From: a virus
IMG/VR virus record: IMGVR_UViG_3300003886_000652
Span: 1 to 35,341 of that record
DNA: 35,341 nucleotides
Reading direction: 5' to 3' (one strand)
Below, in pieces: positions 2,421 to 23,460 of the stretch (position 1 is the first letter of the stretch; every line of letters starts with the position of its first letter). Below the pieces are notes generated by a model. It ran no database searches. It was not told the DNA's origin and saw only the letters and a list, made by a program, of their open reading frames with translations. Position numbers and translations under genes: made by a program.

Positions 2421-2460
2421 TTGTAAAAAATGTGGGTTGCTGCATATATACATTATGCAG
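2421..2460 (+). promoter_or_regulatory. Promoter overlapped by an inverted repeat, for the gene at 2455
   Basis: A -35-like TTGTAA (2421-2426) and a -10-like TATATA (2445-2450) are 18 bases apart. The ATG at 2455 comes 4 bases after the -10 box, so the transcript would be leaderless. A perfect 7-bp inverted repeat, CTGCATA (2440-2446) and TATGCAG (2454-2460), covers the -10 box and start codon and looks like an operator. Confidence 0.55.
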
Positions 2461-2769
2461 AACAGAAAGAGACTTAATGAATTGTTTGGAGACTGCAACA
2501 AAGAGTTGTTGGCCAAGTTTCGGGAATTCGACAAAGCCAATCCGCAAGTTTATACAGAGTTTGAAAAATTAAGCATTGCGATTAAAGAGACCGGGCGGCG
2601 ACATTATTCGCATTGGGCGGTGCTTGGATGCCTTCGATATAATTTGTCGATGTTGTCTCAAGATGAATTCAAATTGAACAACAGGTTGTTTGCTTTGTAT
2701 GCTCGTAAGTTGATCTTCTACAGGCCCGAATTTTTGGGCTTTTATAACTTACGGGCAATGAAGAGTTGA
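2455..2769 (+). CDS. Conserved phage-type protein of unknown function (104 aa)
   Basis: A TTG at 2437 could also open this frame, but the ATG at 2455 fits the leaderless promoter just upstream. The sequence is all-helical in appearance. The pattern NPQVYTEFEKLS, HYSHWAVLGCLRY, FKLNNRLFALYARK and FLGFYNLR matches a small family I recall as recurrent in phage and prophage genomes near replication genes, with no known function. No catalytic residues are evident. It is divergent from the primase-like gene, and the operator over its start suggests early, regulated expression. Confidence 0.75.
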   Translation: MQNRKRLNELFGDCNKELLAKFREFDKANPQVYTEFEKLSIAIKETGRRHYSHWAVLGCLRYNLSMLSQDEFKLNNRLFALYARKLIFYRPEFLGFYNLRAMKS

Positions 2770-2809
2770 AAAATTCGTACATTTCTTTTAAGGCCCATAT
2801 ACTTGCAGT

Positions 2810-2905
2810 ATGAGGTTGCGGCGTAGTGACCTCTACAGAATTGTTATATGTTTCACAGAATGGTTGCGGGGTGTTGCCTTACCTCGATACCCCGCACCTT
2901 TTTAA
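2810..2905 (+). CDS. Possible 31-residue leaderless peptide
   Basis: An ATG at 2810 opens 31 codons. TATACT (2798-2803) ends 6 bases upstream, similar to the leaderless starts elsewhere in the phage. Against it, the 3' third lies inside the terminator hairpin at 2862-2903 and the peptide (Arg-rich start, hydrophobic middle) matches nothing I know. It may be a leader peptide or chance. Confidence 0.25.
   Translation: MRLRRSDLYRIVICFTEWLRGVALPRYPAPF
2862..2903 (+). terminator. Rho-independent terminator
   Basis: TGCGGGGT (2865-2872) pairs with ACCCCGCA (2889-2896), extendable by two G-C pairs across a one-base bulge, followed by CC and five T. It would end transcripts of the gene at 2455 and forms the left edge of the candidate RNA region. 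Confidence 0.6.
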
Positions 2906-3104
2906 TACAGAAAGAAAGAACATGATTGTTGGCGAAACAATTTGATTCTTTCTGTAGGCTGTTGAGGGCAACCCCAGCAGCCGCCCCAGAATGGCCCACA
3001 AGCCGCTTCTTGTTGATTGTCGGCATATCAATCAACTTGGGTACTAAAGGCGACAACAGGGCGAAAGCCGCTCTTGCAATCAAGCAAGAGCGGCTTTTTG
3101 TTTT
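2904..3104 (+). ncRNA. Candidate structured non-coding RNA of about 200 nt
   Basis: Between two terminators lies a stretch with no convincing gene but a chain of hairpins. Hairpin 1 spans 2907-2955: ACAGAAAGAA pairs with TTCTTTCTGT, with an inner ATTGTT/AACAAT stem. Hairpin 2 spans 2957-2982: GGCTG pairs with CAGCC and GTTG with CAAC. Hairpin 3 spans 3012-3036: GTTGATTG pairs with CAATCAAC across a 9-base loop. The final hairpin (3064-3097) is a terminator. A TAATAC box at 2904-2908, directly after the previous T run, could be its -10 element. No known RNA family is recognised. Confidence 0.4.
3064..3104 (+). terminator. Strong Rho-independent terminator, copy 1
   Basis: A perfect 14-bp stem, AAAGCCGCTCTTGC (3064-3077) with GCAAGAGCGGCTTT (3084-3097), has a 6-base loop and a T-rich tail. 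Apart from its loop, it is nearly identical to the hairpin at 3533-3570. Confidence 0.85.
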
Positions 3105-3167
3105 CTTGCTTCCCTTCTTTGATGTTGAGTGGTATGGTTGGTGTTTCCAAACCTGAAAGGTACGACT

Positions 3168-3521
3168 ATGGCAAAGACAACCGCCCCCAAACCCAATGCC
3201 CCAGAGGGCTTCAAAGCCGATCTAGCCAAGACAGCAGACGAGAAGGGGCCGGGCAAAGCGACAGAGTGTAAGGGGTGTTCTCGTTGGTATCACCATAGGG
3301 CGGCTATTTGCCCCGCTTGTGGGCATCCAAACGACGCCAAGCCCAAAGCAAAGAAACGCAAGGCCAAGCCAGCAGCAAAGGCAGGGCGACCACCCAAGGC
3401 ATCCACGGGGCAAAAAAGCAACGACGGCCAAATGGCCGCATTGATGGATTTTGTACGCAAGGCGGGCGGTTTGAAAAAGGCAAGAGCGGTTCTTGACGAA
3501 TTGATTGACCTTAAAGATTGA
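3168..3521 (+). CDS. Small basic zinc-ribbon protein (117 aa)
   Basis: The ATG at 3168 is chosen because AAAGG precedes it at good distance; an upstream frame extension to 3129 lacks a ribosome binding site. Cysteines C34/C37 and C48/C51 form a zinc ribbon (CKGCSRWYHHRAAICPACG). A Lys/Ala/Pro-rich linker follows, including an AT-hook-like GRP core (73-75), then a C-terminal helix (about 92-117). DNA or RNA binding is inferred. Near-identical hairpin terminators flank the gene, so it looks like an independently expressed cassette. Confidence 0.75.
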   Translation: MAKTTAPKPNAPEGFKADLAKTADEKGPGKATECKGCSRWYHHRAAICPACGHPNDAKPKAKKRKAKPAAKAGRPPKASTGQKSNDGQMAALMDFVRKAGGLKKARAVLDELIDLKD

Positions 3522-3530
3522 GCAACCAAC

Positions 3531-3575
3531 AAAAAAAGCCGCTCTTGCAATTCAGCAAGAGCGGCTTTTTGTTTT
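3531..3575. terminator. Bidirectional Rho-independent terminator, copy 2
   Basis: AAAAAGCCGCTCTTGC (3533-3548) pairs with GCAAGAGCGGCTTTTT (3555-3570), a 16-bp perfect stem. Rightward transcripts get a T-rich tail; on the other strand the A run at 3531-3537 gives a T run too. It fits two convergent genes, 3168-3521 (+) and 3591-4289 (-). Confidence 0.9.
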
Positions 3576-3590
3576 GGTGTAACGAGATGG

Positions 3591-4289
3591 TTACTGGTTG
3601 CCCCATTCATCGGGCATTGGTAGACCTTTGGGCGGCTTTGTCCAACTGCCGTAATTATTCAGTTTTTCAAGGTTGGCACATGCCTCTTTCAAGGAAAAGC
3701 GTTTGGGGGCTTTTACATCGTATTGGTTGTAATAATATTCCTTGCCCAAAATCCTGATATTGTTTTGCATTGCTCCACAATCGACAACGAAGGAATCTGT
3801 CTCTAACCAAGCATGCCCCGTATATTGTGTTGGGTTGGTTTTGGTGAAACCGTGGACAAGGAACACCTCCCCATCGTCAAGATCGGCTACGCCATCCAAC
3901 AAGCCCTTGAAAGCGAATTGGTAGCAATTGCCCAACTTGCGGCTTGCGTTGTAAACCTTGCCATCGTCTTTAGGGGGCGGGAACAATTCCTTTATGTAAG
4001 AGCGAAACCCTTTGAGTGGATCGGGAAAGTTGGCGACGATGTAAGCCAGCATTTCAATTGGTTGATCTTTGTCAAACTCGCTGTTTACTTGCTCCCATTG
4101 TTCCTCGGTCAAAACTTCGCCCAAATCCTCAAAACATCGTTGTATCAATTCATCGGGCGGGATGGTGTCGCCCCGCTTTGTTGGGCATATACAATCGGCG
4201 ATAGGCTTTAAGCAGGGATCGCACAGGACCGCCCCGCAACTATCGGCCCCGTGGTCTTCTCCGCAGAAATTACAAACGTATGTTGGCAT
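3591..4289 (-). CDS. Zinc-finger protein with possible papain/transglutaminase-like Cys-His-Asp domain (232 aa)
   Basis: The ATG at 4289 is used; the ATG at 4316 lies inside the preceding gene's terminator hairpin. The N-terminus carries many cysteines (C6, C9, C18, C23, C26, C33, C35) spaced like zinc-binding knuckles. A helical segment (45-105) follows. The C-terminal domain has LGNCYQFAF (C122), HAWLE (H159) and VVDC (D170), in the order and spacing of a papain-like or transglutaminase-like Cys-His-Asp triad. Hydrolase activity is inferred from these residues only. It could act as a protease, amidase or inactive binding domain. Confidence 0.65.
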   Translation of the reverse strand: MPTYVCNFCGEDHGADSCGAVLCDPCLKPIADCICPTKRGDTIPPDELIQRCFEDLGEVLTEEQWEQVNSEFDKDQPIEMLAYIVANFPDPLKGFRSYIKELFPPPKDDGKVYNASRKLGNCYQFAFKGLLDGVADLDDGEVFLVHGFTKTNPTQYTGHAWLETDSFVVDCGAMQNNIRILGKEYYYNQYDVKAPKRFSLKEACANLEKLNNYGSWTKPPKGLPMPDEWGNQ

Positions 4290-4308
4290 GGTATTTTCTT
4301 TCAAAAGA

Positions 4309-4331
4309 AAGGGCAACCAGCGGTTGCCCTT
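4309..4331 (-). terminator. Terminator hairpin for the secreted-protein gene
   Basis: AAGGGCAACC (4309-4318) and GGTTGCCCTT (4322-4331) form a perfect 10-bp stem with a 3-base loop. Leftward it is followed by TCTTTTG, so it serves the minus-strand gene ending at 4348. Confidence 0.75.
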
Positions 4332-4347
4332 GTGTAACTTATCGAGC

Positions 4348-4731
4348 CTACTTGCCTTTGATTATAACATTGTCGTTATTGTCAACCAAGATGCGGTATT
4401 GTTCTTTGCCGTTCTTATCGATGAAACGAATGGCGGCAAAATCATCAACAACAACAATGCTAACACGGGGCTTATCGCCCGATGTTAGTGTTATTGTTGC
4501 CTTCTTATCGTCTACGGAAAGATCGGCGGTAAAGCCAGTTGAAGAAATCAAGTGTAAGGTTGGCTCGCCATCCATAATAGCCATGCCGCCCATTGGCTTA
4601 CCGTCGTCATTGATTAACAAAAATTGGTTGGCTTTGACCGTTCCATATTTGACGTTTCGCAACTTGGCGGCGGCTCCCGTCAAACCAACCACCAACAACA
4701 GAGCAACAGCAATCAAAGTAAAGCGTTTCAT
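4348..4731 (-). CDS. Secreted small beta-repeat protein (127 aa)
   Basis: Residues 1-22 form a classic signal peptide: Lys-Arg, then a run of Ala, Leu, Val and Ile, ending AAA. The mature part consists of short repeats built on a strand, then D-D/N-G-K turn, then a strand (for example LLINDDGKPMGG, IRFIDKNGKEQYRI, ILVDNNDNVII). This resembles bacterial proteins with repeated Lxl.D.nGk.R.xl beta-hairpins. AAAGGGCG precedes the ATG. As a secreted product in a prophage it is likely a lysogenic-conversion cargo gene. Its function is not recognisable. Confidence 0.75.
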   Translation of the reverse strand: MKRFTLIAVALLLVVGLTGAAAKLRNVKYGTVKANQFLLINDDGKPMGGMAIMDGEPTLHLISSTGFTADLSVDDKKATITLTSGDKPRVSIVVVDDFAAIRFIDKNGKEQYRILVDNNDNVIIKGK

Positions 4732-6032: not shown

Positions 6033-6626
6033 CTACTCTGGCCCCCTCTTAAACTTCTCGCTTTTGATCGAAGCCATAAACTTTGTAATCTTGGCAACCT
6101 CTTTTTTGGAATAGAAGACACCATTAAAGCCAACGAGCCTTTTTTTCGGCTCGATGATTCGCCCCTTTGTAATGTGGTGGTCTATCGTGATACGCTTAAC
6201 CCCGCACATTGTGGCAACGTCTGTTTTTGAAAACCAACCATCGGCTCGGCGTTGTTCGTGCCGATCATCAAACCGAAGCGGAAGGTGAGCAGTTAAGAGG
6301 GCGGCAACTACTTTTTTGATTTGATGGATTGCCCAGAATTCCCGCTTGCCGATCTTGATTTCTCGTTGAGGCAATAACCCTTGCTGTAACAATGTCTTAA
6401 TTCGTTTTTCTGTAAACCCCATGTTGATTACATCCCGCAAGGAATAAGCGTTGGCAACTTGGCAATAAGCAGATATTGCTTCTTTGAACCCATCGGGTGT
6501 ATAGAATTTCTTACCCCTAACAACAACATTGGGCGATGGTATCGCACCGCTTTTAATCAACGTCTTAATTTTTTCGTGGTTCACTTGTAACGTGGTTGCC
6601 AAATGATAAAGCGAGAATACTTTCAT
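6033..6626 (-). CDS. Regulator made of three MerR/excisionase-like winged-helix units (197 aa)
   Basis: Three tandem units share the pattern 'hydrophobic-S/K-x-x-D/H-hh, helix, G-A/L-I/L-P, basic strand, Y/F'. Unit 1 is about 4-52 (FSLYHLATTLQV...SGAIPSPNVVVRGKKFYT). Unit 2 is about 61-110 (YSLRDVINMGFTEKRIKTLL...). Unit 3 is about 131-184 (WFSKTDVATMCGVKRITIDH...). Each resembles the DNA-binding part of MerR or Xis proteins. The ATG at 6626 is preferred over 6653 because TATATA ends 5 bases upstream. It is divergent from a 46-residue gene with a large inverted repeat between them, so an immunity-repressor or excision-control role is inferred. Confidence 0.75.
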   Translation of the reverse strand: MKVFSLYHLATTLQVNHEKIKTLIKSGAIPSPNVVVRGKKFYTPDGFKEAISAYCQVANAYSLRDVINMGFTEKRIKTLLQQGLLPQREIKIGKREFWAIHQIKKVVAALLTAHLPLRFDDRHEQRRADGWFSKTDVATMCGVKRITIDHHITKGRIIEPKKRLVGFNGVFYSKKEVAKITKFMASIKSEKFKRGPE

Positions 6627-6631: not shown

Positions 6632-6660
6632 TATATAGTACGATGGCCAACATTTTGCAG
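6632..6660 (-). promoter_or_regulatory. Leftward promoter of the three-winged-helix regulator
   Basis: Read leftward, CTGCAA (6660-6655) and TATATA (6637-6632) are 17 bases apart. The ATG at 6626 follows after 5 bases, so the mRNA should have little or no leader. The -35 box is part of the inverted repeat. Confidence 0.55.
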
Positions 6661-6681
6661 AATGATTACTGCAAAATGTTG
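6648..6681. promoter_or_regulatory. Operator: perfect 13-bp inverted repeat between divergent genes
   Basis: CAACATTTTGCAG (6648-6660) and CTGCAAAATGTTG (6669-6681) are exact inverse complements with an 8-bp centre. The arms cover the -35 positions of both divergent promoters, so one bound protein could control both. A second smaller CTGCA-type inverted repeat covers the promoter at 2440-2460. Confidence 0.75.
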
Positions 6682-6699
6682 CTGTTGCAGCACTAGATA
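6669..6699 (+). promoter_or_regulatory. Rightward promoter with TAGATA box
   Basis: CTGCAA (6669-6674) and TAGATA (6694-6699) are 19 bases apart, a long spacer. The ATG at 6704 follows 4 bases later. TAGATA is shared with six other upstream sites in the phage. Confidence 0.45.
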
Positions 6700-6703: not shown

Positions 6704-6844
6704 ATGAGCAAAAAACAATCAGACCTTTTAAGAACCAAGCCCCAATGCTTTGCCGCATCGGTAATGACAATTGAGCAAATGAAACACGAGCCTATCGGCT
6801 TTTGTTCGCCTGTTGTTTGCAGAGTACCAAGAGCGAAACTCTAG
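6704..6844 (+). CDS. 46-residue leaderless small protein opposite the regulator
   Basis: An ATG follows TAGATA by 4 bases and opens 46 codons, MSKKQSDLL...VPRAKL, ending in TAG at 6842-6844. Three cysteines (C15, C34, C39) and a basic N-terminus are visible; no family is recognised. The stop overlaps the end of the convergent methyltransferase gene by 4 bases, which limits drift of the frame. The position matches that of Cro-like or anti-repressor genes in other phages, but no helix-turn-helix is evident. Confidence 0.5.
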   Translation: MSKKQSDLLRTKPQCFAASVMTIEQMKHEPIGFCSPVVCRVPRAKL

Positions 6845-7464
6845 AGCATGACAACCCGGAAGCCCCTCGAATACGGGAATTCAAAGCCGCCCTTGCTTTC
6901 GATAACATCGAGTGCGTCTATCAAGTCTTGATTATCCGTTGCCGTTTCTTTGCGGTGTCTGCTCGTGTCATGGAATAATACAACCGCCCCTTCCCCAAAA
7001 TGATTGCCGTTCTTTAATGCGGCAAACTCTTGGTGCCTCAACCATGTTTCAGAATCAAGGAAAGCAAAATCGATCTTGCCCGCTGAAAAATTTTCGATGA
7101 ATTCGAGGCTATCGCTTTCGACATATTCCACAAATGGGGCCAAGTCTTTATCAAATTCATCAAGGTGCTTCTTGGCTTCTGTTATTCGCTCTGCTGATAA
7201 CTCAACCGCATACACCTTGCCAAACCCATTTGCTTTAAGAGCGGCGGCAATGGCGATGGTTCCAAAGCCCCGAAAGACTCCCGTTTCAATTACAAGTTTG
7301 GGCTTGTAACTGTAGACCAACGCATTAACAAAGTTGAGGGTTTCAACTTCGGTTGAACCGCCATCAATTGCAGAATAAAGAATTGCCCTTTCTTCGGGGC
7401 AATGTGGATGCACCTCGAATTCGGTAAAGGCTCCGAATGTCTCTTTTAATTTTTCTCCGAACAT
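6841..7464 (-). CDS. Class I SAM-dependent methyltransferase (Methyltransf_24-like, 207 aa)
   Basis: The SAM-binding motif I is LVIETGVFRGFGT (57-69), followed by an acidic strand end YAVEL (85-89), DFAFLDSET (132-140) and LFHDTSR (163-169). This fits small-molecule or glycan O-methyltransferases of the Methyltransf_24 and cephalosporin-hydroxylase-like group, not DNA methyltransferases. The start is ATG 7464, 4 bases after a TATATA box within a 16-bp palindrome. It is divergent from the TPR/glycosyltransferase-like gene, so joint glycan modification is an inference. Confidence 0.8.
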   Translation of the reverse strand: MFGEKLKETFGAFTEFEVHPHCPEERAILYSAIDGGSTEVETLNFVNALVYSYKPKLVIETGVFRGFGTIAIAAALKANGFGKVYAVELSAERITEAKKHLDEFDKDLAPFVEYVESDSLEFIENFSAGKIDFAFLDSETWLRHQEFAALKNGNHFGEGAVVLFHDTSRHRKETATDNQDLIDALDVIESKGGFEFPYSRGFRVVML

Positions 7465-7479
7465 TACTTATATAAGTAA
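7464..7479. promoter_or_regulatory. 16-bp perfect palindrome containing divergent -10 boxes
   Basis: TTACTTATATAAGTAA is self-complementary and centred between the methyltransferase (-) and the TPR/glycosyltransferase-like gene (+). TATATA can act as -10 for both directions. Leftward, the ATG comes 4 bases after the box (leaderless). Rightward, a leader of about 25 bases carries GGGGGG before the ATG at 7505. Confidence 0.55.
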
Positions 7480-7504
7480 GGCACGATTATTTTTGGGGGG
7501 ATGA

Positions 7505-9073
7505 ATGGCGGAATTGCAAGAAGCATTATTACAAGAGACATTAGACAGAGGCACCAACCTTGCCTTTGCATTGTATAAAGCAAGAGAATTTGAACGAGCC
7601 AAGTTGATTTGCTTGCAAGGCGTCAAGACGTTTCCCCATGAAGACAATTTGGTGGGCTTGTTGGGGATGGTCAGGAGCGAACAAGGCGACCACGAAGAAG
7701 CCCTTGCAAATTTTTCAAAGGCGTTGCTGTTACGCCCCGATTGCCCGGAACACTTAAACAACATCGGCCTTGCATATTCGGCAATGGGAAATGAAAAATT
7801 AGCAATTGAGTTTTTCAATCGATCAATTGAGGTTGGCCCCGCCTTTGTTCCCGCTTACAGCAACCTTGCAACTGAATACCACAAACAGGGCAAGACGGAC
7901 GAAGCCCTTCTGTTGCTCAACAAAGCGATTGAGATAGACAAGGGGGCGGCTTATGCGTGGTTTAACATGGGCAACACCTTTGGGGATCGGCTGGAAATAG
8001 AAGCGGCTGTTGATGCCCACGGCAAAGCGGTTGAATTAGAACCGACCAACCCACAATATCAATTCAACTATGCCAACGGGCTGTTGTTGCTTGGACGCTG
8101 GCAAGAGGGTTGGGAACATTACAGCAAACGAGATGGGTTGTTTCCTCAATTCAAATACAAGCGGCAAGCCTTGATTGAACATTGCCCAGAGTGGAACGGG
8201 GAAGACCTAGAGGGCCAACGCATTTATCTTTATTGTGTTCAGGGGGATGGGGACAAACTCCAATTTATCCGCTTTGCCAAAGCGTTGCAGGATATGGGAG
8301 CAACAACCATTGTTGAGACTCCCGAAAGTTTGCAAGAGTTATTTGCAAAAGTTGAAGGCATTGACGAAATTGCCCCGCCCCAAAACAAGTACACGGTTAA
8401 GACCGATGCACCCCAAACTCCGATTGCCTTTGTTCTTGACCGTGAAACCTTACCGGGTTTTGATTTCCATTGTGAACTAATGGAATTGCCCCGCTTGCTT
8501 GGGATCGATACCGAGAACATCCCAAGCGAGCCATACATTATCAACCATAGCCCAGCCAAGCCGCTTGCCAAAAAGTCTTTGTTGCAAGTTGGTTTGTGTT
8601 GGGGTGGAAATCCAATACATCGAAACGACCACAACCGAAGTTGCCCCTTAAAGTATTTTGAACAACTGGCGATGCCGGGCGTTTCTTTGTTCTGTCTGCA
8701 AAAAGATAAGCGGGTGCGGCATTGGCCCGAACAAGGCAAAATTGATTTGATGGAAGGGGCCAATGTTCCCTTTGCCGATCCAACAGAGACCTTTAACGAT
8801 TACGAAGATACGGCTTATTGGATTAACCAACTCGATCTTGTGGTTACTGTTGATACCAGTTTGGCACACTTGGCGGGAGCGATGGGTAAGCCCGTATTTC
8901 TATTGTTGCCCTATGCCCCTGATTGGCGTTGGATGTTGGAAACAGACCGCACCCCGTGGTATTCATCAATGCGATTATTCAGACAGCCCATAAAGGGCGA
9001 TTGGCAAAGCGTCTTAAAAAATGTGGCAACTGCAATAGATACATTCACACAACCTATTTTGCAAAAGAGGTAA
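7505..9073 (+). CDS. TPR protein with glycosyltransferase family 9-like domain (522 aa)
   Basis: Residues about 15-210 contain five to six tetratricopeptide repeats (for example EEALANFSKALLLRPDCPEH and KLAIEFFNRSIEVGPAFVPA). The C-terminal part has the marks of TPR-linked GT9-like proteins: EGWEHYSKR (201-209), GDGDKLQFIRFAKAL (247-261), GLCWGGNP (363-370) and DLVVTVDTSLAHLAGAMGKP (444-463). GT9 enzymes use nucleotide-heptose-type donors; here donor and acceptor are unknown. GGGGGGATGA precedes the ATG at 7505. Being directly upstream of virion genes suggests glycosylation of the particle or of the host surface. Lysogenic conversion is the alternative. Confidence 0.8.
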   Translation: MAELQEALLQETLDRGTNLAFALYKAREFERAKLICLQGVKTFPHEDNLVGLLGMVRSEQGDHEEALANFSKALLLRPDCPEHLNNIGLAYSAMGNEKLAIEFFNRSIEVGPAFVPAYSNLATEYHKQGKTDEALLLLNKAIEIDKGAAYAWFNMGNTFGDRLEIEAAVDAHGKAVELEPTNPQYQFNYANGLLLLGRWQEGWEHYSKRDGLFPQFKYKRQALIEHCPEWNGEDLEGQRIYLYCVQGDGDKLQFIRFAKALQDMGATTIVETPESLQELFAKVEGIDEIAPPQNKYTVKTDAPQTPIAFVLDRETLPGFDFHCELMELPRLLGIDTENIPSEPYIINHSPAKPLAKKSLLQVGLCWGGNPIHRNDHNRSCPLKYFEQLAMPGVSLFCLQKDKRVRHWPEQGKIDLMEGANVPFADPTETFNDYEDTAYWINQLDLVVTVDTSLAHLAGAMGKPVFLLLPYAPDWRWMLETDRTPWYSSMRLFRQPIKGDWQSVLKNVATAIDTFTQPILQKR

Positions 9074-9499: not shown

Positions 9500-9538
9500 A
9501 CAAAAGCCTTTGTCTTTTTTGAAGACAGGGGCTTTTGT
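9500..9538 (+). terminator. Long hairpin, attenuator or processing site
   Basis: ACAAAAGCC (9500-9508) pairs with GGCTTTTGT (9530-9538), and the stem continues through GTCTT/AAGAC to a T-rich loop, giving about 17 pairs. It lacks a T run after the stem, so it may be an incomplete terminator or an RNA processing site. The TAGATAC element follows 2 bases later. Confidence 0.5.
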
Positions 9539-9547
9539 ACTAGATAC
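9519..9547 (+). promoter_or_regulatory. Late promoter candidate with TAGATAC element
   Basis: TTGAAG (9519-9524) and TAGATA (9541-9546) are 16 bases apart, downstream of the hairpin. The leader to the ATG at 9576 carries GCGGGG as ribosome binding site. Confidence 0.5.
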
Positions 9548-10023: not shown

Positions 10024-13000
10024 ATGTTTATTGTACCGAAGCAACCTTTAGGCATTTCCCAAGCGAATACAACAGATAGATTATCAGACGGCTTGATTGC
10101 ATCCTATCCGTTTAGCGTTCCCGGTACGGATACCGTGCATGATTGCTCGGCCTATCATTTCCCTTTGACTCTGGCCAACCACAATGCCGCCGATTGGAAA
10201 ACAACGCACAGAGGTTGGGCGTTTGATTTTGACGGGGCAGGCGATACCGCCGATGTATCCAACGCTTTACACCTTGCGGAAATGATCGAGATTACCCTTT
10301 CTGCTTGGATCAATATTGACACCTTCGTGCCTACCCGTCAAGACATTATTTTTAACGGCAACAACTATGCCTTGTATCTTGCTGGCCAACAACTTGTTGT
10401 TGAATACATTTCCTCAACACCATTAACGCACACCTTCACTTCAACGGCCAACGTGATTACGGCAACCGATACTTGGTTTCACGTTGCGGCAAGGATTGGA
10501 TTTGAAGACGGCAACAAAGTTGGCTTGTTTGTTAATGGTGTTGAGGTTGCGGGAACTTGGACAGAGGGAGACGGCACCGAATTACCAGACTTGGCCACAA
10601 CCTTGCAAATTGGCAAGGGTACGTTTAATGGGCGATTGCAAAACATCAACATTTACAGGCGATACCTTCCCCCCAATGAAATTACTTTGTTGGCTGATAA
10701 CCCTTGGGTTGTGTACGAAGATTATATTCCGTTGCTTGTTCCCCTCTTGCAATACATGGCAACAGGCGATGGCGGCATGGTGTTTGGTGGATCATCCCCA
10801 GCGGTACTAATTTTAAGCGAGTGGAGGCAAACGCCATCAACAGGCATTGCCTTTGCTGGAATTACTAACGCATCAACAAGCGGATTTAGTGGATGCGTTG
10901 GCACGCAAGAGATTGTACAAGTTGCTGCAACTGCCGATGATGGTTATTGGGTAAACAATAACACATATTTCACTGGCATTGTGAAATTTGGTAAGTCTTT
11001 TATTCTCGCTGCTTTTGATCCTAACATTCTTTCAGCCCAAGCGATTGTTGAGTGGAGTTCTTGGTGCCGCTTTACTGGCGTAGACATTGAACAAGGGGCA
11101 ACCATCGGTTGTGCCTTTCTTGAATTTGTGCCTAGTGGCTCGTCCCCTCAATCAACTAATGTAAATGTTCGCATCGTTGCCGAAGATGTAGACAGCGGAA
11201 CGGCCCCCGCCAACGCAAGCCAAGCAGACGGCAAAACAAGAACATCGGCGGGCGTGAATTGGTCGCCCGGTACTTGGACAATTGGAACGAACGAATTTAG
11301 CACCAATATCAAAACCGTTATTCAAGAAATCGTTGACCGCTCAGGGTGGAATAGCGGCAATGCAATCACAATCCTGATCGATGAAAACGGCAGCGATACA
11401 ACATCAACTAGAGAGGCAACCGATTACACAACCACGCCGGGCGATGCTACACAACTAACAGTTTTTTGGACGCTTAACAAAGTAGTTGTTCCAACAGGCG
11501 GTTTGCGGTTTGACGGTTCTGCAACCATCGGTTTAAGTTACACGCCAACGGGCGGCATGGTCTTTGGCGGCGGGGCTGTAATCGTCTTTGCCCCAACCTA
11601 TACAGGCACGGGGGGCATGCTCTTTAGTGGAACGGCTTCTTATGGTGTTTCCATCATTCCCGAAGGCGGCATGGTCTTTAGTGGAACGGCTCCGCATGGT
11701 GTTTCCATCATTCCCGAAGGCGGCATGGTCTTTGGCGGGGCGGCCAACATTGCTTCTAGCGTTTGGGTTTACACTGGCACGGGCGGGCTTACTTTAGCGG
11801 GAGACGCTACCGAAGATATCAGCGGTTGGGATTATGTCCCAACAGGCGGTATGGTCTTTGGCGGGGCGGCTTTAATCACGTTCCCGAATTGGGGCTATGT
11901 TCCAAGCGGCGGCATGGTCTTTGCTGGCTACGCATTGTTGGAACAAGATTACAGTTTTACAGGCACGGGCGGGATGCTGTTTGATGGCGATGCCTCAACC
12001 GTGTTGGCTTTGCTGGTTACTGGTTCTGGTGGTCTTGTTCTTTCTGGCGAGGCAGTCTTTACCGTTCACCTTGTAACCATCGCTTGCCCCAATGTTTTTG
12101 ACAATCTTTACACCTATCGAAAATTGGTAACCATTCCAGACGGCAAAGTTTCTTCTGACCTTACAGACTTCCCGGTTCTTGTTTCGGTTACGTTGGACGA
12201 TGCCCAGCCGATCTATAAGGCACAAGGCAACGAAGGCATTTCCTTTGGCGGCAATACAACTTTTGTTTCTACTAATTGGAGAGCAGCACCAACAGCCGGG
12301 TTGGCTTTCAAGGACGATGGCGACACCAACACGCACGCAGGAAGCGGCGTGTTGGCTCTGTCTGGTGTTGCTCCCATAAGGTACGGCATTGGCCGAAACG
12401 ATATTTCTTTTGAGGATCGAAACAGAATTACCCTTGCTTATGAAATCGATAATTACGATCCGATTACCGGGCAACTGTTGGCTTGGGTTAAACTGCCAAC
12501 CCTTTACCAGAAATCGGCCAACGAGTTTTATGTTTACTACGGCAAGGCGGACAAGGGCAGACATTACAACACCACAACCGAAGGCGGTATGGTGTTTGGC
12601 GGCTCTGTTGCCGATGTTGTTTCTTCTGATTACAGAGCAACAGGCAGCGGCGGCTTGCTGATAAATGAAACGGGGGCTTATTCAGCAACAGGCACGGGCG
12701 GTCTTGCTCTGTCTGGCATTGGTGCCTTCTTCTATCAAGACAACCCCGATAGACAAAACAGTTTCAACAGTTGGAACAATGGCTTTGAAGCGGTCTATCA
12801 CTTGGGCGATGCAACCAACGCCTTTGCAGACTCTAGCGGTAACGCATTGCATGGCAGCAGCCCAACAACAGACGTTTCGGTTTCAACCTCAATTTATTAC
12901 CCTGCTCGATGGGATGGCAAAGTTTATAAGGGCCAACACTTTGACGGCAACGACCATATACAAACGGGCCAAGATTCAATCTATGTTGCCGACAGCGTTA

Positions 13001-14742
13001 CAATTGAAGGTTGGGTTAAAGCCGATGCGGTTAGTTTTGTAAGACGCTGCATTTTCAGCAGAGGCAAAGAAGATACCGTAAACGGTTTGGGTTGGTCTTT
13101 CTCTCTTGGCTATTCAGAGAATGGGAAAGTATGGGCCAACATCCAAGCCGAAGAAAATGATGGCGATTGGGTAACGGTTGAAACCTTGGGAGCAACCACG
13201 ATTGCCGCCAATACTTGGTATCACTTTGCGGCGGTGTGGAATTCTGGCAGCACCTTAAAAGTTTATCTTGATGGTGTCGAAGATGGATCGACCACAACAA
13301 CACAAGATACCTTTGTTGCTTATGGTGTTGGTAACTTTATTGGGCGGCGGGATGCTGGCTTTTATCATGGTGGCGAGTTGGATGAAATCCGCTTGTCTAA
13401 TGTTGCCCGCTCTGCTGATTGGATCAAAGCCACCAGAGACAACACTAACGCCCCCGCTTCCTTTGTAACCATATCGTTACAGCAAGGGGCGTTAGGATTT
13501 GGCGGGCTGGCCACAATTACCGTTGATCGAGTTTCCTATGTTACAACAGGCGGCTTGACGCTATCGGGAACAAGCGAAAGCGAAACAACAACCTTTGGCT
13601 TTGCTGGCACGGGTGGTTTGACATTGGCAGGTCAAGCCCCCATTGGCAGACCATACACGGGAACGGGTGGGCTAACTCTAGCGGGCGATGCTACCGAGGT
13701 TGTCGGCTCTTGGCGTTTTGTCGGCTCTGGTGGTCTTACCTTATCAGGCACGGCAACGATTGGGAACATTAACAAAAAGGCGGTTGGCTCTGGTGGTCTT
13801 ACCTTATCAGGCACGGCGGTCTTTGCCTTTGGGTTTGTCGGCTCTGGTGGTTTAAGTTTCGGCGGCTCCGCAACTTTATCAATCAGCAAAGAATATACAG
13901 GCACGGGCGGGCTAACTTTCGGCGGCTCTGCTGTTGGCCCTGCCCGTGTTATGTGGGGATCGATTACCCTTGCTGGATCGGCAACCCAAAAACAGGGTTA
14001 CAGCATTACACCAACAGGCGGTTTGACTTTTGCGGGTACTGCTGGCTTCGGCTTTGGGTACATCGCAACAGGCGGTTTAAGTTTCGGCGGTTCTGCAACT
14101 CTCGATCTTGGCAAAGATGCTGTTGGCTCTGGTGGGCTGACGTTGGCCGGTACAGCCATTGGCCCCGCCCGTGTTGTTTGGGGTGGCTTAACGCTTGCAG
14201 GCTCCGCAGAAGCCCAAGCATCGCCCACAGTATCGACACCAAAGGGCGGGCTTGCTCTTGCTGGCTCCGCAACGCTCCGCAGAATTTACACGGTAACACC
14301 AACCAGCGGTTTAAGTTTTGGCGGCAATGCTGGCCTTTCGATCCGTGTTGCTGGCTCTGGTGGTCTCGTTCTATCTGGTTCGGCTCCGATCCGTTGGGAT
14401 GCAACAGGCGTTGGCGGTCTTACCTTTGGCGGCTCTGGCGTTATTGTTCGGAGTTTCTCCACAACACCAACAGGCGGGTTGGTTCTGTCTGGTGTTGCTC
14501 AACTATCAACTTGGTTTACCGAGGGCGATGGCGGTTTGATCTTTGGCGGCTCAATTTTAGAGGGGCCACGCTCTTATATTATTGTGCCAACGGGCGGTTT
14601 GGAATTTATAGATTCATCCATCAAGACAGACTTTGCGGGTAGCGTTACCAACAACAGCGTTTTTGATGGAACGATTACAAGCAACAGAACATTTGCCGGA
14701 AGGCTTACGATTGTTTCGGCATTTGATGGGGTGGTTACATAA
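10024..14742 (+). CDS. Giant mosaic tail adhesin with LamG, DUF2341 and about 38 GG-repeat units (1572 aa)
   Basis: AAGAGG precedes the ATG. Domains in order: LamG/concanavalin-like (about 20-222); repeat units (about 245-280); a jelly-roll-like domain (about 290-485, with CRFTGVDIEQGATIGCAFLE and IVDRSGWNSGNA); repeat block (about 497-685); DUF2341-like (about 696-920) interrupted twice by repeat units; a second LamG (about 920-1150); a long repeat block (about 1150-1540); and a short repetitive end. The unit is G-G-[LM]-x-[LF]-x-G-x-[AS], spaced 17-30 residues. LamG and DUF2341 domains bind glycans in known proteins, so host-surface binding is inferred. The stop overlaps the next gene's ATG (TAATG). 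Confidence 0.85.
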   Translation: MFIVPKQPLGISQANTTDRLSDGLIASYPFSVPGTDTVHDCSAYHFPLTLANHNAADWKTTHRGWAFDFDGAGDTADVSNALHLAEMIEITLSAWINIDTFVPTRQDIIFNGNNYALYLAGQQLVVEYISSTPLTHTFTSTANVITATDTWFHVAARIGFEDGNKVGLFVNGVEVAGTWTEGDGTELPDLATTLQIGKGTFNGRLQNINIYRRYLPPNEITLLADNPWVVYEDYIPLLVPLLQYMATGDGGMVFGGSSPAVLILSEWRQTPSTGIAFAGITNASTSGFSGCVGTQEIVQVAATADDGYWVNNNTYFTGIVKFGKSFILAAFDPNILSAQAIVEWSSWCRFTGVDIEQGATIGCAFLEFVPSGSSPQSTNVNVRIVAEDVDSGTAPANASQADGKTRTSAGVNWSPGTWTIGTNEFSTNIKTVIQEIVDRSGWNSGNAITILIDENGSDTTSTREATDYTTTPGDATQLTVFWTLNKVVVPTGGLRFDGSATIGLSYTPTGGMVFGGGAVIVFAPTYTGTGGMLFSGTASYGVSIIPEGGMVFSGTAPHGVSIIPEGGMVFGGAANIASSVWVYTGTGGLTLAGDATEDISGWDYVPTGGMVFGGAALITFPNWGYVPSGGMVFAGYALLEQDYSFTGTGGMLFDGDASTVLALLVTGSGGLVLSGEAVFTVHLVTIACPNVFDNLYTYRKLVTIPDGKVSSDLTDFPVLVSVTLDDAQPIYKAQGNEGISFGGNTTFVSTNWRAAPTAGLAFKDDGDTNTHAGSGVLALSGVAPIRYGIGRNDISFEDRNRITLAYEIDNYDPITGQLLAWVKLPTLYQKSANEFYVYYGKADKGRHYNTTTEGGMVFGGSVADVVSSDYRATGSGGLLINETGAYSATGTGGLALSGIGAFFYQDNPDRQNSFNSWNNGFEAVYHLGDATNAFADSSGNALHGSSPTTDVSVSTSIYYPARWDGKVYKGQHFDGNDHIQTGQDSIYVADSVTIEGWVKADAVSFVRRCIFSRGKEDTVNGLGWSFSLGYSENGKVWANIQAEENDGDWVTVETLGATTIAANTWYHFAAVWNSGSTLKVYLDGVEDGSTTTTQDTFVAYGVGNFIGRRDAGFYHGGELDEIRLSNVARSADWIKATRDNTNAPASFVTISLQQGALGFGGLATITVDRVSYVTTGGLTLSGTSESETTTFGFAGTGGLTLAGQAPIGRPYTGTGGLTLAGDATEVVGSWRFVGSGGLTLSGTATIGNINKKAVGSGGLTLSGTAVFAFGFVGSGGLSFGGSATLSISKEYTGTGGLTFGGSAVGPARVMWGSITLAGSATQKQGYSITPTGGLTFAGTAGFGFGYIATGGLSFGGSATLDLGKDAVGSGGLTLAGTAIGPARVVWGGLTLAGSAEAQASPTVSTPKGGLALAGSATLRRIYTVTPTSGLSFGGNAGLSIRVAGSGGLVLSGSAPIRWDATGVGGLTFGGSGVIVRSFSTTPTGGLVLSGVAQLSTWFTEGDGGLIFGGSILEGPRSYIIVPTGGLEFIDSSIKTDFAGSVTNNSVFDGTITSNRTFAGRLTIVSAFDGVVT
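11644..11733 (+). repeat. 54-bp tandem duplication inside the adhesin gene
   Basis: A 54-bp unit beginning at 11644 and again at 11698 is identical over the first 36 bases and encodes two copies of GVSIIPEGGMVF, an 18-residue period. The near identity points to recent expansion of the repeat block. Confidence 0.85.
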
Positions 14743-16510: not shown

Positions 16511-16539
16511 AAACTTTGGCAATTCCATACATAAGAGAT

Positions 16540-16713
16540 ATGGAAGAAGCAGAACAAAATAAAGGTTCTTTTGATGTTATCAACAAGATTGGGAAAGCCA
16601 AGTTGTGTAATGAGACCATTACAGAACCGCAAGCCACAAGCACCAACGATCCTGTTGACCTTGCAGAAATGCAACAGCAGTATCTTTGGCGGTGTACTTT
16701 CGAGGTTCTATGA
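16540..16713 (+). CDS. Small protein between terminase and portal (57 aa)
   Basis: The frame could also open at TTG 16516. The ATG at 16540 is preferred, although its AAGAG motif is very close. The stop TGA overlaps the portal ATG as ATGA, which argues for real, coupled translation. The product (MEEAEQNKGSFDVINKIG...) is acidic at the start and matches no family I know. Confidence 0.5.
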   Translation: MEEAEQNKGSFDVINKIGKAKLCNETITEPQATSTNDPVDLAEMQQQYLWRCTFEVL

Positions 16714-19487: not shown

Positions 19488-19861
19488 TGGCGAGCGATTT
19501 CATTAGCAAGATCAAATGGCACGGCGATGAATTCTTTAAGAAGTTAAAAGAGGAAGAAGCCCGCAACTTAGAACGGGCGGCAATCTTTTTGAAAAACGAA
19601 GTTAAGAAAAACATTTCAGAGGCACCCCCAGCAAGTAAGGCGGGCGAGTTTCCCCATAGAGAAGATGGCGAGTTGCGTCGATCTATTGCCCACGAAGTAG
19701 ACAAAAACAAAATGGTTGCCAGAGTGGGAACCAACAAAGTCTATGGGCGGTACTTGGAATTGGGAACCAACGAAATGGCGGCAAGACCTTTCTTGCGGCC
19801 AACGCTGGCAAAGAACCGCAGAACGATTAGAAAACTTCTTACACGCAAACCAAACATTTAA
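19487..19861 (+). CDS. HK97 gp10-like head-tail protein (124 aa)
   Basis: Start ATG 19487 is taken; ATG 19484 is equally possible. A long N-terminal helix (FKKLKEEEARNLERAAIFLK) is followed by RRSIAHEV, YGRYLELGT and AARPFLRPTL, the typical C-terminal signature of gp10-like minor tail or joining proteins. It is convergent with the HNH endonuclease gene, overlapping it by 4 bases. Confidence 0.8.
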   Translation: MASDFISKIKWHGDEFFKKLKEEEARNLERAAIFLKNEVKKNISEAPPASKAGEFPHREDGELRRSIAHEVDKNKMVARVGTNKVYGRYLELGTNEMAARPFLRPTLAKNRRTIRKLLTRKPNI

Positions 19862-20370
19862 TTAAGGTGTTGGTGGCATTGTGTAACAAACGCCAAGAAC
19901 TCTTGCTCTGAATAATTGTGCTTCGCAATGTTTACCCATTTGTGTACCCATTGCAAATTGCCAATGTCGTTTGTTCCGCCTTTTGATATTGGTATTTTGT
20001 GGTCAAGCGAAGCGTTGGTGCCAACTTTTAACAGTATGCCAGTATAAGGGCAACGGCATTTTTGCCTTAAATAGAGAGCGGCAATTTCCATGCCTCGCTT
20101 TTGCGAGCCAAGTCTTTTAGATGCCGTAGCCTTAAACGTACATATCTCACAGCGTTTAGACTCATTGTTAGCACGACGCTTTCCGCATCGCCCACAATGC
20201 CCGCTTTCAATCCAACGCAAACGCCTTTGCTTGTCCGCCATTGTATCAAGGCACACTTGGCACATTGTTTTGTTTATGACGAACGGATATTTTCCACAAT
20301 GGCAACAAAGACCAGCCTCGTGAAACCTTTTGCTACGCATTCTCTCAAGCATCAAATATTGTGATATCAT
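19858..20370 (-). CDS. HNH endonuclease with zinc fingers, on the opposite strand (170 aa)
   Basis: AGAGG precedes the ATG. Cysteine pairs C22/C25, C37/C40, C59/C62, C74/C77 and C105/C107 suggest treble-clef or ribbon zinc sites. The HNH core is SLDHKIPISKGGTNDIGNLQ (121-140) with D123-H124, N138 and later H143/H151. Free-standing HNH nucleases in phages are often selfish homing genes. Being inverted inside an otherwise one-directional head operon, between gp10-like and protease genes, supports recent insertion. Confidence 0.85.
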   Translation of the reverse strand: MISQYLMLERMRSKRFHEAGLCCHCGKYPFVINKTMCQVCLDTMADKQRRLRWIESGHCGRCGKRRANNESKRCEICTFKATASKRLGSQKRGMEIAALYLRQKCRCPYTGILLKVGTNASLDHKIPISKGGTNDIGNLQWVHKWVNIAKHNYSEQEFLAFVTQCHQHLN

Positions 20371-20403: not shown

Positions 20404-20434
20404 ATGACAAAATAGTGCAATAACAACTAGATAC
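20404..20434 (+). promoter_or_regulatory. Leaderless promoter of the prohead protease gene
   Basis: ATGACA (20404-20409) and TAGATA (20428-20433) are 18 bases apart. The ATG at 20439 follows the box after 5 bases with no room for a Shine-Dalgarno site. It restores expression after the inverted HNH gene. Confidence 0.55.
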
Positions 20435-20438: not shown

Positions 20439-21293
20439 ATGGATATTCACAAACGATATAAACGTAAAGATTGTGCTATTGGCCCGTTGGGTTTTCCGCA
20501 ACGAGATCAAGCCGCAAGGGTGCTAGAAGCACAACTTAAAGAGGCAGAGAAAAACGGAATTGGATACAAGCGGGCTTTCATCGCCAACAAGCCAACCGAA
20601 TTACAAGAGGGCGAACGGGCAGACATTTCGATTATCACTAGTAATGTTGTCGATAGAGATAACGAGGTAGTGCTTGCAAGTGGGGCAGACCTTAAACAGT
20701 TTGAAGCCAACCCGGTCATTACATGGGGCCACGATTACAGCAAAGCACCGATAGGTCGTGCAGTGTGGGTTAAGTTTGAACCGACACGATCCAAAGCCCA
20801 ATACATCAAAGCAAAAATTGAGTATGCCCCGCAAGATTCAAACCCTCTTGCCGATACCGCTTGGCAGTTGGTCAAGGCGGGTTTCTTAAAAGGTAAGAGC
20901 ATTGGATTTTTGCCAATGGAAATCAGCCCGCCCAGCCAAAAAGAAATTGACAAACAGCCAGACCTTGAAGGGGTGCGTAATGTTATCCGCAAATGGTCTT
21001 TGTTCGAGGTAGCCGTTGCAACCGTTCCCGCTAATCCTACGGCTCTTGTTGAGTCTGTTGCAAAAGGCGAATTGATCTTGCCCGATTATCTGATTGAAGA
21101 AATGGGTTTGACCATGCCCCAAGAAGATGTTGTGGAATTCAAACTTTGGGATTGGGACGAACAACCAGAACCACAAACTAAAGAGACGTTACCCCAACCG
21201 AAAGTTACAAGACGTTGGCGGGATGTTGAAAGCAAAGTCTTACAAAGTCTTACAACTGAAAACGAATTGATGCGAAAGATAACAGGAAAATAA
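20439..21293 (+). CDS. HK97-family prohead protease (284 aa)
   Basis: The catalytic residues fit the H-S-E arrangement of the S78 family: TWGHD (H98), GKSIGFLP (S154) and LFEVAVATVPANP (E190). Together with NPVITWGHD...APIGRAV this is characteristic. The first about 45 residues are a basic/helical extension. It matures the capsid by cleaving scaffold segments. The gene stands directly before the major capsid gene. Confidence 0.9.
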   Translation: MDIHKRYKRKDCAIGPLGFPQRDQAARVLEAQLKEAEKNGIGYKRAFIANKPTELQEGERADISIITSNVVDRDNEVVLASGADLKQFEANPVITWGHDYSKAPIGRAVWVKFEPTRSKAQYIKAKIEYAPQDSNPLADTAWQLVKAGFLKGKSIGFLPMEISPPSQKEIDKQPDLEGVRNVIRKWSLFEVAVATVPANPTALVESVAKGELILPDYLIEEMGLTMPQEDVVEFKLWDWDEQPEPQTKETLPQPKVTRRWRDVESKVLQSLTTENELMRKITGK

Positions 21294-21357
21294 AAGCGTT
21301 ATGGGATAATGCCATTTCCCATTCTCCTTGTCGTTTTGAAAGCGGCAATAATCCTAG

Positions 21358-21390: not shown

Positions 21391-21419
21391 ATGCCTCAAC
21401 AAAAACGAAAGGCACGGCA

Positions 21420-21427
21420 CTAGATAC
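21420..21427 (+). promoter_or_regulatory. Late promoter element CTAGATAC upstream of the capsid gene
   Basis: The element follows the terminator by about 30 bases, in the same order as at 23347 and 25810. No good -35 box is seen (AACAAA at 17 bases). The leader to the ATG at 21554 is about 120 bases. Confidence 0.45.
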
Positions 21428-21553
21428 CTCTGCTGAATCAATTAGGCACCGACCACTGATAACAACAGGCTTAGCGGCTGGAGTTGTTGCGATGCGAAGG
21501 GCTGGCGATTGGTGAGCGAAACAATTTTTCACTTACCAAATGTAGAGGTATCA

Positions 21554-22816
21554 ATGAATACAAAGTATGTAAAAATGCTTAACGATTTTGGAGACGATCA
21601 CGCCAAGGGCGAAGTCTATGAGATTGATAACGAAACAGCCGATAAATGGGTTGGGGCTGGATTGGCAGAAATCGACAACCCACAAGATGAATTGCTTGGC
21701 AAGTTTAGCAAAGCCCTTGAAGAAAGGGATGCAAAACTTATTGAGAAACTAAGCGATGCAGTCAAGGTAAACAGCCAGCCGCCTAGCGTCAAAGTCTTAC
21801 GAGACGAGACCGACAAGCAGAAATGCTTTGGCGATTTTGTTAAAGCAGTTGCCAAAGATGATGCCGAGAGACTGGCGAAGGTTTACGGTTCACAGAAAGC
21901 AACCTTGACCGAAAGCAGCGGTTCACAGGGTGGATACCTTGTGCCAACTGATTACCGAAATGAACTTCTTTCTATTGATGGGTATTCCCCAATTGTTCGA
22001 GACCGAGCAAACGTGGTGCCTGTTTCTGTTGAGAAGATCAAATGGCCCGCATTAAATCAAAGCGGCTCCCTTAGTGGTGCTGACTCTAATTTCTATGGCG
22101 GCGTAAAAATGACTTGGGCGGATGAAAATGATTCCGCAACAGAAACCAACCAAACCTTCAAAGAAATTGAACTTGTTGTTAATCGCCTTTCGGCTTACAC
22201 GCAAGTTTCAAATCACTTGTTGCAAGATTCGCCAATTTCAGTTGATGCCCTAGTGCGTCAACAATTCGCATTGGCAATTGGTCAACATCTTGATTACCAG
22301 TTTTTGCGAGGCGATGGTGTCGGCAAACCTCTTGGGGCGTTGTCTGGTTCTGGTTCAATCTCTGTTACCAGAACAACATCAACACGCTTTAAGTTGGCGG
22401 ATGCGGCCAACATGATTAAGCGGCTTCCCGCTTCAAGCATGGCAAACGCTGTTTGGGTAATGAGCCAATCGGTTCTTTCTGAATTGGTGCAACTTGTGGA
22501 CGCTGGCAACAACAGTGTTTACATGCCGAATGTGCAACCGGGAATTAACTTCTCGCTGTTTGGATTACCTGTAATGATTACAGAAAACTTACCCGCTCTT
22601 GGTACTGCAAAGGATGTTTGCCTTTGCGATTTCAGCAAATACATTATTGCCGAAAATCAAGACGTTACCATTTCGGTTAGCGAGCATGTTGCTTTCTTAA
22701 CCAACAAACAAACCTTTAAGGTTGACATGCGGCTCGATGGGCAACCGCAACTCGACAATGCAATTACGCTTGCCGATGGTGCAACCACAATCAGCCCGTT
22801 TGTCTACTTGACATAA
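21554..22816 (+). CDS. Major capsid protein, HK97 fold (420 aa)
   Basis: The ATG at 21554 follows AGAGG; a frame extension to 21509 is unlikely. The first about 110 residues are charged (YVKMLNDFGDDHAKGEVYEI, then a coiled helix) and probably act as the scaffold-like delta segment cut by the protease. The capsid domain starts near SGSQGGYLVPTDYRNELL and continues with RVVPVS-like strands, TYTQVSNHLLQDS-like region and FLRGDGVGKPLG. It forms the icosahedral shell. Confidence 0.9.
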   Translation: MNTKYVKMLNDFGDDHAKGEVYEIDNETADKWVGAGLAEIDNPQDELLGKFSKALEERDAKLIEKLSDAVKVNSQPPSVKVLRDETDKQKCFGDFVKAVAKDDAERLAKVYGSQKATLTESSGSQGGYLVPTDYRNELLSIDGYSPIVRDRANVVPVSVEKIKWPALNQSGSLSGADSNFYGGVKMTWADENDSATETNQTFKEIELVVNRLSAYTQVSNHLLQDSPISVDALVRQQFALAIGQHLDYQFLRGDGVGKPLGALSGSGSISVTRTTSTRFKLADAANMIKRLPASSMANAVWVMSQSVLSELVQLVDAGNNSVYMPNVQPGINFSLFGLPVMITENLPALGTAKDVCLCDFSKYIIAENQDVTISVSEHVAFLTNKQTFKVDMRLDGQPQLDNAITLADGATTISPFVYLT

Positions 22817-22830
22817 TAAGGGGGTTTTCA

Positions 22831-23265
22831 ATGTCAAATAAATTATCTGATAACCTTGCAGTTGTTGCCGTAGTTGATCCTCTGTTGAGGGACAACGCAG
22901 CCGGTACTTCTGATTGGGCAGGAATGGCCAAGCACAGCAAGATCATGTTTGTGATTGCCGTAGGTGCAACCGATACAACGGTTGATGCCAAGTTGCAAGA
23001 AGCCACCGATTCCAGCGGAACGGGTGCGACTGATTTAAGCGGTAAAGCGATTACCCAACTTGGGGCAACAGACGATAACAAACAAGTTATCATTGAAGTT
23101 GACGCCTCGGAACTTTCGAGCGGCTTTGATTTTGTTGCTTGTGTGGTAACAAGTGGTGACGGCACAGCGGGTGCCGATACTTGCGTTATCGCTCTTGCAG
23201 GCGATGCACGATACAACCCGGCAAGCGGCTATGATCTAGCCAGCGTTGCAGAGATTGTTTCTTAA
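22831..23265 (+). CDS. Probable head decoration protein (144 aa)
   Basis: AAGGGGG precedes the ATG, 14 bp after the capsid gene. The sequence is Ala/Asp/Thr-rich and beta-like (AVVAVVDPLLRDNAAGTSDW, KIMFVIAVGATDTTVDAKLQ, FDFVACVV, GDARYNPASGYDLASV). Position and composition fit a capsid-coating protein produced in amounts equal to the shell protein. A terminator follows directly. The family is recalled from phage structural sets but not named. Confidence 0.65.
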   Translation: MSNKLSDNLAVVAVVDPLLRDNAAGTSDWAGMAKHSKIMFVIAVGATDTTVDAKLQEATDSSGTGATDLSGKAITQLGATDDNKQVIIEVDASELSSGFDFVACVVTSGDGTAGADTCVIALAGDARYNPASGYDLASVAEIVS

Positions 23266-23281
23266 TCCTTTGTTGATTCTT

Positions 23282-23317
23282 AAAACCCTCGTCTTGAATA
23301 AAGGCGGGGGTTTTTTT
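23282..23317 (+). terminator. Strong Rho-independent terminator
   Basis: AAAACCCTCGTCTT (23282-23295) pairs with AAGGCGGGGGTTTT (23301-23314) using G-T pairs, 5-base loop, followed by a T run. It separates the capsid transcript from the connector transcript. Confidence 0.85.
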
Positions 23318-23324
23318 GTGTCTA

Positions 23325-23354
23325 TTGAAAATAGAGATACTCCACCCTAGATAC
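23325..23354 (+). promoter_or_regulatory. Leaderless promoter of the connector operon
   Basis: TTGAAA (23325-23330) and TAGATA (23348-23353) are exactly 17 bases apart, the best-formed copy of the TAGATAC promoter. The ATG at 23359 follows after 5 bases. Confidence 0.65.
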
Positions 23355-23358
23355 CCGT

Positions 23359-23460
23359 ATGCAATCAACACCAAAGAATAAAGCAATGAAGAAGGCTCCC
23401 AAGTTGAAGGGGCGGCGTAACCAACTGGTTACAACCAAACAGAAACAGGGGGACAAATGA
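23359..23460 (+). CDS. 33-residue strongly basic leaderless peptide
   Basis: An ATG 5 bases after the TAGATA box opens MQSTPKNKAMKKAPK...QKQGDK, with over a third Lys and Arg. The stop overlaps the next gene's ATG (ATGA) and the GGGGG ribosome binding site of that gene lies inside it. Both facts support real translation. It might bind DNA or the capsid interior, or only couple translation. Confidence 0.5.
   Translation: MQSTPKNKAMKKAPKLKGRRNQLVTTKQKQGDK

Follow-up and report, generated by a model that had tools for sequence, protein, structure and literature searches.

In the 35,341-nucleotide phage record IMGVR_UViG_3300003886_000652 (analyzed at full length and referred to here as the window), several genes carry a TA-rich hexamer in the place of a Shine–Dalgarno (SD) site. 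This arrangement raises the questions of whether the hexamers belong to promoters whose mRNAs begin at the start codon, and whether the genes behind them form a control class of their own.

A hexamer abuts six start codons that lack an SD site

The first-pass annotation of this DNA had described a TAnATA hexamer 4 or 5 bases upstream of six ATGs, at 2455(+), 6626(−), 6704(+), 7464(−), 20439(+) and 23359(+). We found all six in place, the first T of each box standing at −10 or −11 relative to the ATG. Using 38 listed gene starts as the test set and the 1027 other ATG triplets of the window as the control, we observed TAnATA ending 4–5 nt upstream of 7 of the 38 starts versus 3 of the 1027 controls (odds ratio 77, Fisher p = 4.6e-9 with seven starts counted; p = 2.6e-7 for the six annotated genes alone). 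Dinucleotide shuffling of the upstream 40 nt (5000 runs) gave a mean of 0.14 box-adjacent starts and a maximum of 3.

The annotation had also held that no usable SD site fits between box and ATG, and that the other phage genes mostly have strong ones, both of which were borne out by the predicted energies of pairing to the anti-SD sequence. The median duplex energy was −1.6 kcal/mol for the six genes, not beyond that of random 20-mers (−2.2 kcal/mol), as against −7.1 kcal/mol for 33 other starts (Mann–Whitney p = 4e-4). We considered 19060, where TAAATA lies 5′ of an ATG, as a seventh leaderless gene and rejected it because an in-frame TTG, the ninth codon of the ORF, is served by a strong GGGGG SD (−8.6 kcal/mol).

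A predicted two-part promoter fronts most gene blocks

Together with five further sites, the six form a set of eleven TA[GT]ATA sites in the phage genome, all of which lead into genes or gene blocks. Aligning the eleven by the box alone, such that upstream sequence played no part in site selection, yielded the consensus AAAAA-N15-TA[GT]ATA(C). Its A-tract occupies columns −20 to −16, exactly 15 bp 5′ of the box, where 47 of 55 letters are A and column −18 is A in all eleven sites; a C directly follows the box in eight. At other TAnATA sites of the window, a mean of 1.5 of these five columns are A, and none of 5000 null sets of eleven sites each reached the A-tract value of the eleven. When we scored both strands of the 35 kb in a leave-one-out procedure, ten of the eleven sites outranked every other position, the exception being the weakest site, at 6694, which was outscored by 14 other positions and which shares an inverted repeat with its divergent partner at 6637(−). 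Because of the shared A-tract at fixed spacing and this ranking, we regard the boxes as parts of one bipartite promoter.

The placement of the boxes was equally selective. Ten of the eleven fall in non-coding DNA, which makes up 6.1% of the phage region, and all eleven face a gene. On the plus strand, TAGATAC occurs seven times (at 9036, 9541, 20428, 21421, 23348, 25811 and 26896) versus 0.63 expected, with every copy just 5′ of a gene, and three boxes (21421, 23348 and 25811) lie 34–37 nt 3′ of predicted intrinsic terminators. A-tract spacing, non-coding position, orientation and upstream terminators together support the boxes as promoter elements. A predicted promoter of this one two-part design fronts most gene blocks of this marine phage, and about half of its copies abut a start codon.

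The remaining copies stand well upstream of genes with SD sites. Five of the seven TAGATAC copies precede SD-led genes with leaders (9077, 9576, 21554, 25853 and 26949), with the box at 29–127 nt from the start. The promoter at 9016–9041(+) (A-tract 9016–9020, TAGATAC 9036–9042), whose box falls within the 3′ end of gene 7505, lies 35 nt before ATG 9077, and that at 9521–9546(+) (GAAGA 9521–9525, TAGATAC 9541–9547) lies 29 nt before ATG 9576. The copy at 21401–21426(+) (AAAAA 21401–21405, TAGATAC 21421–21427) follows a terminator stem by 37 nt and would give the capsid gene 21554 a leader of ~120 nt. Similarly, the copy at 25791–25816(+) (AAAAA 25791–25795, TAGATAC 25811–25817) follows a terminator stem by 34 nt and precedes ATG 25853, that of the major tail protein, by 36 nt. 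The promoter at 26876–26901(+) (ATAAA 26876–26880, TAGATAC 26896–26902) lies 47 nt before start 26949, that of the tape measure gene. A long imperfect hairpin (ACAAAAGCC...GGGGCTTTTGT, 9500–9540) with no clear T tail stops right at the 9541 box. A weaker promoter of this type, which would be the twelfth, may be present at 16528–16540: a TACATA lies 6 nt before ATG 16540 with a TAAAA tract 16–20 nt upstream, and the 57-aa ORF that begins there has a good coding signal and no SD.

The promoter is not of the TTGACA/TATAAT type. A sigma-70 scan (TTGACA-like and TATAAT-like hexamers 16–18 bp apart) reported none of the eleven sites, and sigma-70-type matches were fewer than in shuffled sequence (6 versus 10.0 and 13 versus 25.4). 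Moreover, where TATAAT ends in T, column 6 of the box is A in all eleven sites. Nor do the sites qualify as T4-type late promoters, which have the −10 element TATAAATA and no −35 element, whereas here TA[GT]ATAC is joined by a conserved upstream A-tract. The sigma-28 type (TAAA-N15-GCCGATAA, with elements ~15 bp apart) is a possible lead: the TAGATAC sites resemble it in spacing and in the GATA core, although their flanking bases are not the same, and three of our sites read TATATA. No sigma factor was recognized among the window proteins searched, and the window contained no Rfam families or tRNAs. A literature search on TAGATA promoters and leaderless late phage genes found nothing matching.

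Leaderless starts account best for the spacing

Box-to-start gaps were bimodal, being either 4–5 nt without an SD or at least 29 nt with one, with the 10–28 nt range empty. The chance probability of an ATG at a gap of 4–5 in at least six of eleven promoters was 3e-7. The reading that we favor, and consider probable from these sequence patterns, is that the phage carries eleven copies of the bipartite promoter, of which six set against ATGs would give leaderless mRNAs while the other five serve SD-led genes. RNA polymerase would recognize the A-tract and box and begin on the A of an abutting ATG or on a neighboring base, producing a leaderless mRNA that would be read by 5′-AUG recognition instead of an SD; the five other copies would yield a 23–120 nt leader with a normal SD. 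We thereby infer three things: promoter function of the boxes, transcription start at the A, and use of these ATGs.

The six genes differ in how well they fit. The earlier claim that all are leaderless held up for four, in which a coding signal is present and no other start is convincingly backed by an SD, and less well for 6704 and 23359, which are short and weak. For 2455, 6626, 7464 and 20439, a leaderless start is the best reading of the sequence. The promoter at 2425–2450(+) (A-tract 2425–2429, N15, TATATA 2445–2450), above which no position in the window scored in the leave-one-out test, has a gap of 4 to the ATG of an early gene (2455–2769, +) predicted to be leaderless and encoding a 104-aa phage protein of PHROG 13625 (unknown function). 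Its M1 aligns with M1, the annotated start, of the Polaribacter phage Danklef_1 homolog, although a cyanophage homolog is shorter at the N terminus. Downstream of this gene lie two copies of a strong terminator hairpin (3064–3104 and 3535–3575, 95% identical over 41 nt), which bracket a small zinc-ribbon gene at 3168–3521.

The promoter at 6632–6657(−) (A-tract 6657–6653, TATATA 6637–6632) has a gap of 5 to ATG 6626, which stands just ahead of the first helix-turn-helix match of its product, a 197-aa regulator with MerR/HTH_17-like helix-turn-helix motifs (6033–6626, −; predicted leaderless). Judging from gene order, the 6626 gene probably heads a leftward unit, with genes 5928, 4731 and 4289 among its members. 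The promoter at 7469–7494(−) (A-tract 7494–7490, TATATA 7474–7469; gap 4) precedes a predicted leaderless gene for a 207-aa SAM-dependent methyltransferase (Methyltransf_24; 6841–7464, −), which has a clear coding signal over its first 40 codons. That at 20408–20433(+) (CAAAA 20408–20412, TAGATAC 20428–20434) places its hexamer, 20428–20433, 5 nt before the ATG of a 284-aa prohead protease (Peptidase_S78; 20439–21293, +), likewise predicted to be leaderless, with coding signal in the first 50 codons and no SD-backed alternative start. Immediately before this promoter, inside the structural block, is a minus-strand HNH endonuclease gene (19858–20370) that looks like an inserted homing endonuclease.

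A leaderless start is likely for 6704, a 46-aa ORF (6704–6844, +) with a weak coding signal. It lies 4 nt beyond the promoter at 6674–6699(+), which combines a weaker A-tract (AAATG, 6674–6678) with TAGATA at 6694–6699. The stop codons of this ORF and of the convergent methyltransferase gene overlap exactly, in a CTAG, and this favors the ORF's being real. The case of 23359 is ambiguous. The promoter at 23328–23353(+) (AAAAT 23328–23332, TAGATAC 23348–23354), 34 nt after a terminator stem, has its hexamer TAGATA (23348–23353) 5 nt before the ATG of a 33-aa basic ORF (23359–23460, +) that has a weak coding signal and overlaps the start of the strongly SD-led gene 23457; a leaderless ORF and a leader RNA of gene 23457 are equally good readings.

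The exact start point carries some tension. In E. coli, transcription starts most often 7 nt downstream of the −10 element and rarely begins more than 1 nt before this mode (PMC5730371), such that the annotation's premise of a normal start 5–8 bases after a −10 box was generous. At the six starts the ATG begins with nucleotide 5 or 6 after the box, and by the E. coli rule the first transcribed base would be the T or G of this codon, 1–2 nt past the A. Either the host polymerase starts closer to the box, or the true contact register differs.

This tension lends its weight to an alternative in which the promoters are real but transcription starts 6–8 nt downstream, as in E. coli, bypassing the ATGs and leaving translation to begin at a downstream codon. 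The position of the strong-SD gene 23457 after 23359 fits such an arrangement, as does a plausible internal start in a capsid gene of another phage contig (described below). We nevertheless consider it unlikely. No in-frame alternative start with an SD was found downstream for 6626, 7464 or 20439, and the first codons look coding, as seen in codon usage directly after ATGs 2455, 7464 and 20439. The alternative also leaves the strong excess of ATGs at this exact spacing without a cause; because such an excess would be pointless if transcription began inside or after the ATG, the position of the ATG appears to matter.

The suggestion that the leaderless genes are under a control of their own, as a class apart from the SD-led genes, did not survive, and we give it little credence. 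Although the six lack an SD and most other genes have one, the same bipartite promoter also precedes the five SD-led genes, and a class distinction fails where led and leaderless units share a promoter; furthermore, the six themselves mix TATATA with TAGATA boxes and early with structural genes. Also improbable is that the ATG-adjacent boxes are not promoters but an AT-rich translation aid on longer mRNAs started upstream. AT-rich, unstructured start regions are a known feature of SD-independent initiation, but the same box and A-tract with the same spacing also occur 29–127 nt upstream of SD-led genes and shortly behind terminators, positions at which they could hardly assist translation.

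Dyads mark the TATATA promoters

A different division was visible among the boxes, between TATATA (2455, 6626 and 7464; early or regulatory genes) and TAGATA(C) (mostly structural units), and all three TATATA boxes are overlapped by or adjoin a dyad. Between the divergent genes 6626 and 6704 lies a perfect 13-bp inverted repeat, CAACATTTTGCAG-N8-CTGCAAAATGTTG (6648–6681), whose center (6664.5) falls within 1 bp of the midpoint (6665.5) between the boxes at 6637(−) and 6694(+), and whose arms overlap both A-tracts. This repeat is probably an operator. Its half-site, CTGCA[AT]AATGT[AT], has only one other zero-mismatch occurrence, at 2449–2460(−), across the box and ATG of 2455. The recurrence at that position suggests a three-promoter circuit in which the helix-turn-helix protein encoded by 6626 may repress its own promoter and those of 6704 and 2455. 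At the methyltransferase gene, a perfect 16-bp palindrome, TTACTTATATAAGTAA (7464–7479), covers the TATATA box and the A of the start codon; on the other side of this palindrome, 25 nt away, begins the divergent TPR/glycosyltransferase gene 7505.

Known leaderless systems and possible relatives

Leaderless genes behind an adjacent −10 box are already known, and what appears new here is the motif, the tight spacing and the use for a head gene. In Deinococcus-Thermus, a −10 motif TANNNT lies 6–7 bp before the ORF, with its function shown by mutation (PMC12340547). The phage genes resemble that system in having a −10-like box directly before the ORF without an SD and, as predicted here, a leaderless mRNA, but differ in the box itself (TA[GT]ATA, with A at position 6), in the gap of 4–5 and in the A-tract 15 bp upstream. 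In the TA-led (leaderless) genes of bacteria (Zheng et al., 2011; PMC3160421), a TA-like signal sits ~10–12 bp upstream of the start codon. The six phage genes likewise have a signal in this range in the place of the SD, which they lack, but the first T of the box is at −10/−11 rather than ~−12, the TANNNT consensus is broken by an A at the sixth base of all eleven boxes, leaving it without the final T, and the phage's other genes use strong SD sites. The cI message of phage lambda has been named as an lmRNA (PMC9031893), paralleling the predicted leaderless mRNA of the regulator; here, unlike for lambda cI, the methyltransferase and prohead protease genes are apparently leaderless too, behind a promoter repeated genome-wide. 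Lactococcus cremoris has leaderless and led messages with a bimodal length distribution in which no leader of 4–14 nt was found (PMC10986495), similar to the phage, in which a message would have either no leader or one with room for an SD; the Lactococcus leaders come from RNA 5′-end sequencing, whereas ours are read from box positions.

Close relatives that might share the motif were scarce. Searches of IMG/VR with the protease, capsid, terminase, portal, 2455 protein and Cys-rich 30311 protein, and of GTDB genomes with the terminase and flanking gene, recovered no close diverged relative, only the identical contig IMGVR_UViG_3300020233_000027 and relatives at ≤ ~37% identity; against 301 Chloroflexota genomes the terminase likewise reached at most 37%. 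The motif search in related phages that had been proposed gave a mixed outcome: the distant relatives scanned had no family of such sites, but one other contig had the same layout. This contig, L114, was the only one clearly of the same kind among the listed matches of an IMG/VR scan for AAAAA-N15-TAGATAC-N4-ATG, most of which were chance matches inside AT-rich coding DNA. L114 is an unrelated or distant 4.1-kb phage contig of 54% GC, with a capsid that is only locally, and then 22%, identical. It has the full motif with TAGATA 5 nt before its capsid ATG (L114:1718–1729), and its sole other TA[GT]ATA, a TAGATA, lies 4 nt before the GTG of a gp6-like connector gene (L114:3099–3111), just after a terminator-like stem. 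Homologs of the capsid begin to align at its codon 10, an internal ATG preceded by AGAGGG. Because the search pattern had itself selected the capsid box, and the capsid may start at codon 10, only the connector box counts as independent, and we regard it as supportive of the layout but not decisive.

Other features of the window

Three further observations concern the window at large. A 1572-aa protein (10024–14742) contains many degenerate repeats ~54–60 nt apart (units of the GG-M/L-VFGG type) and is probably a tail fiber or decoration protein. The 33403(−) ORF contains a 51-nt tandem duplication (32977–33078). The stretch from 33420 to 35341 reads as more G+C-rich and is possibly host DNA or a different module.

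Implications

Phage leaderless messages are known mainly from single regulators, whereas here one repeated promoter would serve both leaderless and SD-led genes, a head protein included, across a whole phage genome. More tentatively, the sites may represent an undescribed promoter type, A5-N15-TA[GT]ATAC, used by a sigma factor that starts transcription 5–6 nt after the box and thereby makes leaderless messages for virion genes such as the prohead protease; we hold this to be possible rather than probable. As a clean natural set, the eleven promoters may help to show the effect on expression of leader length as opposed to promoter type, and the motif could be used to search for related phages, which in turn may lead to the host and its sigma factor.
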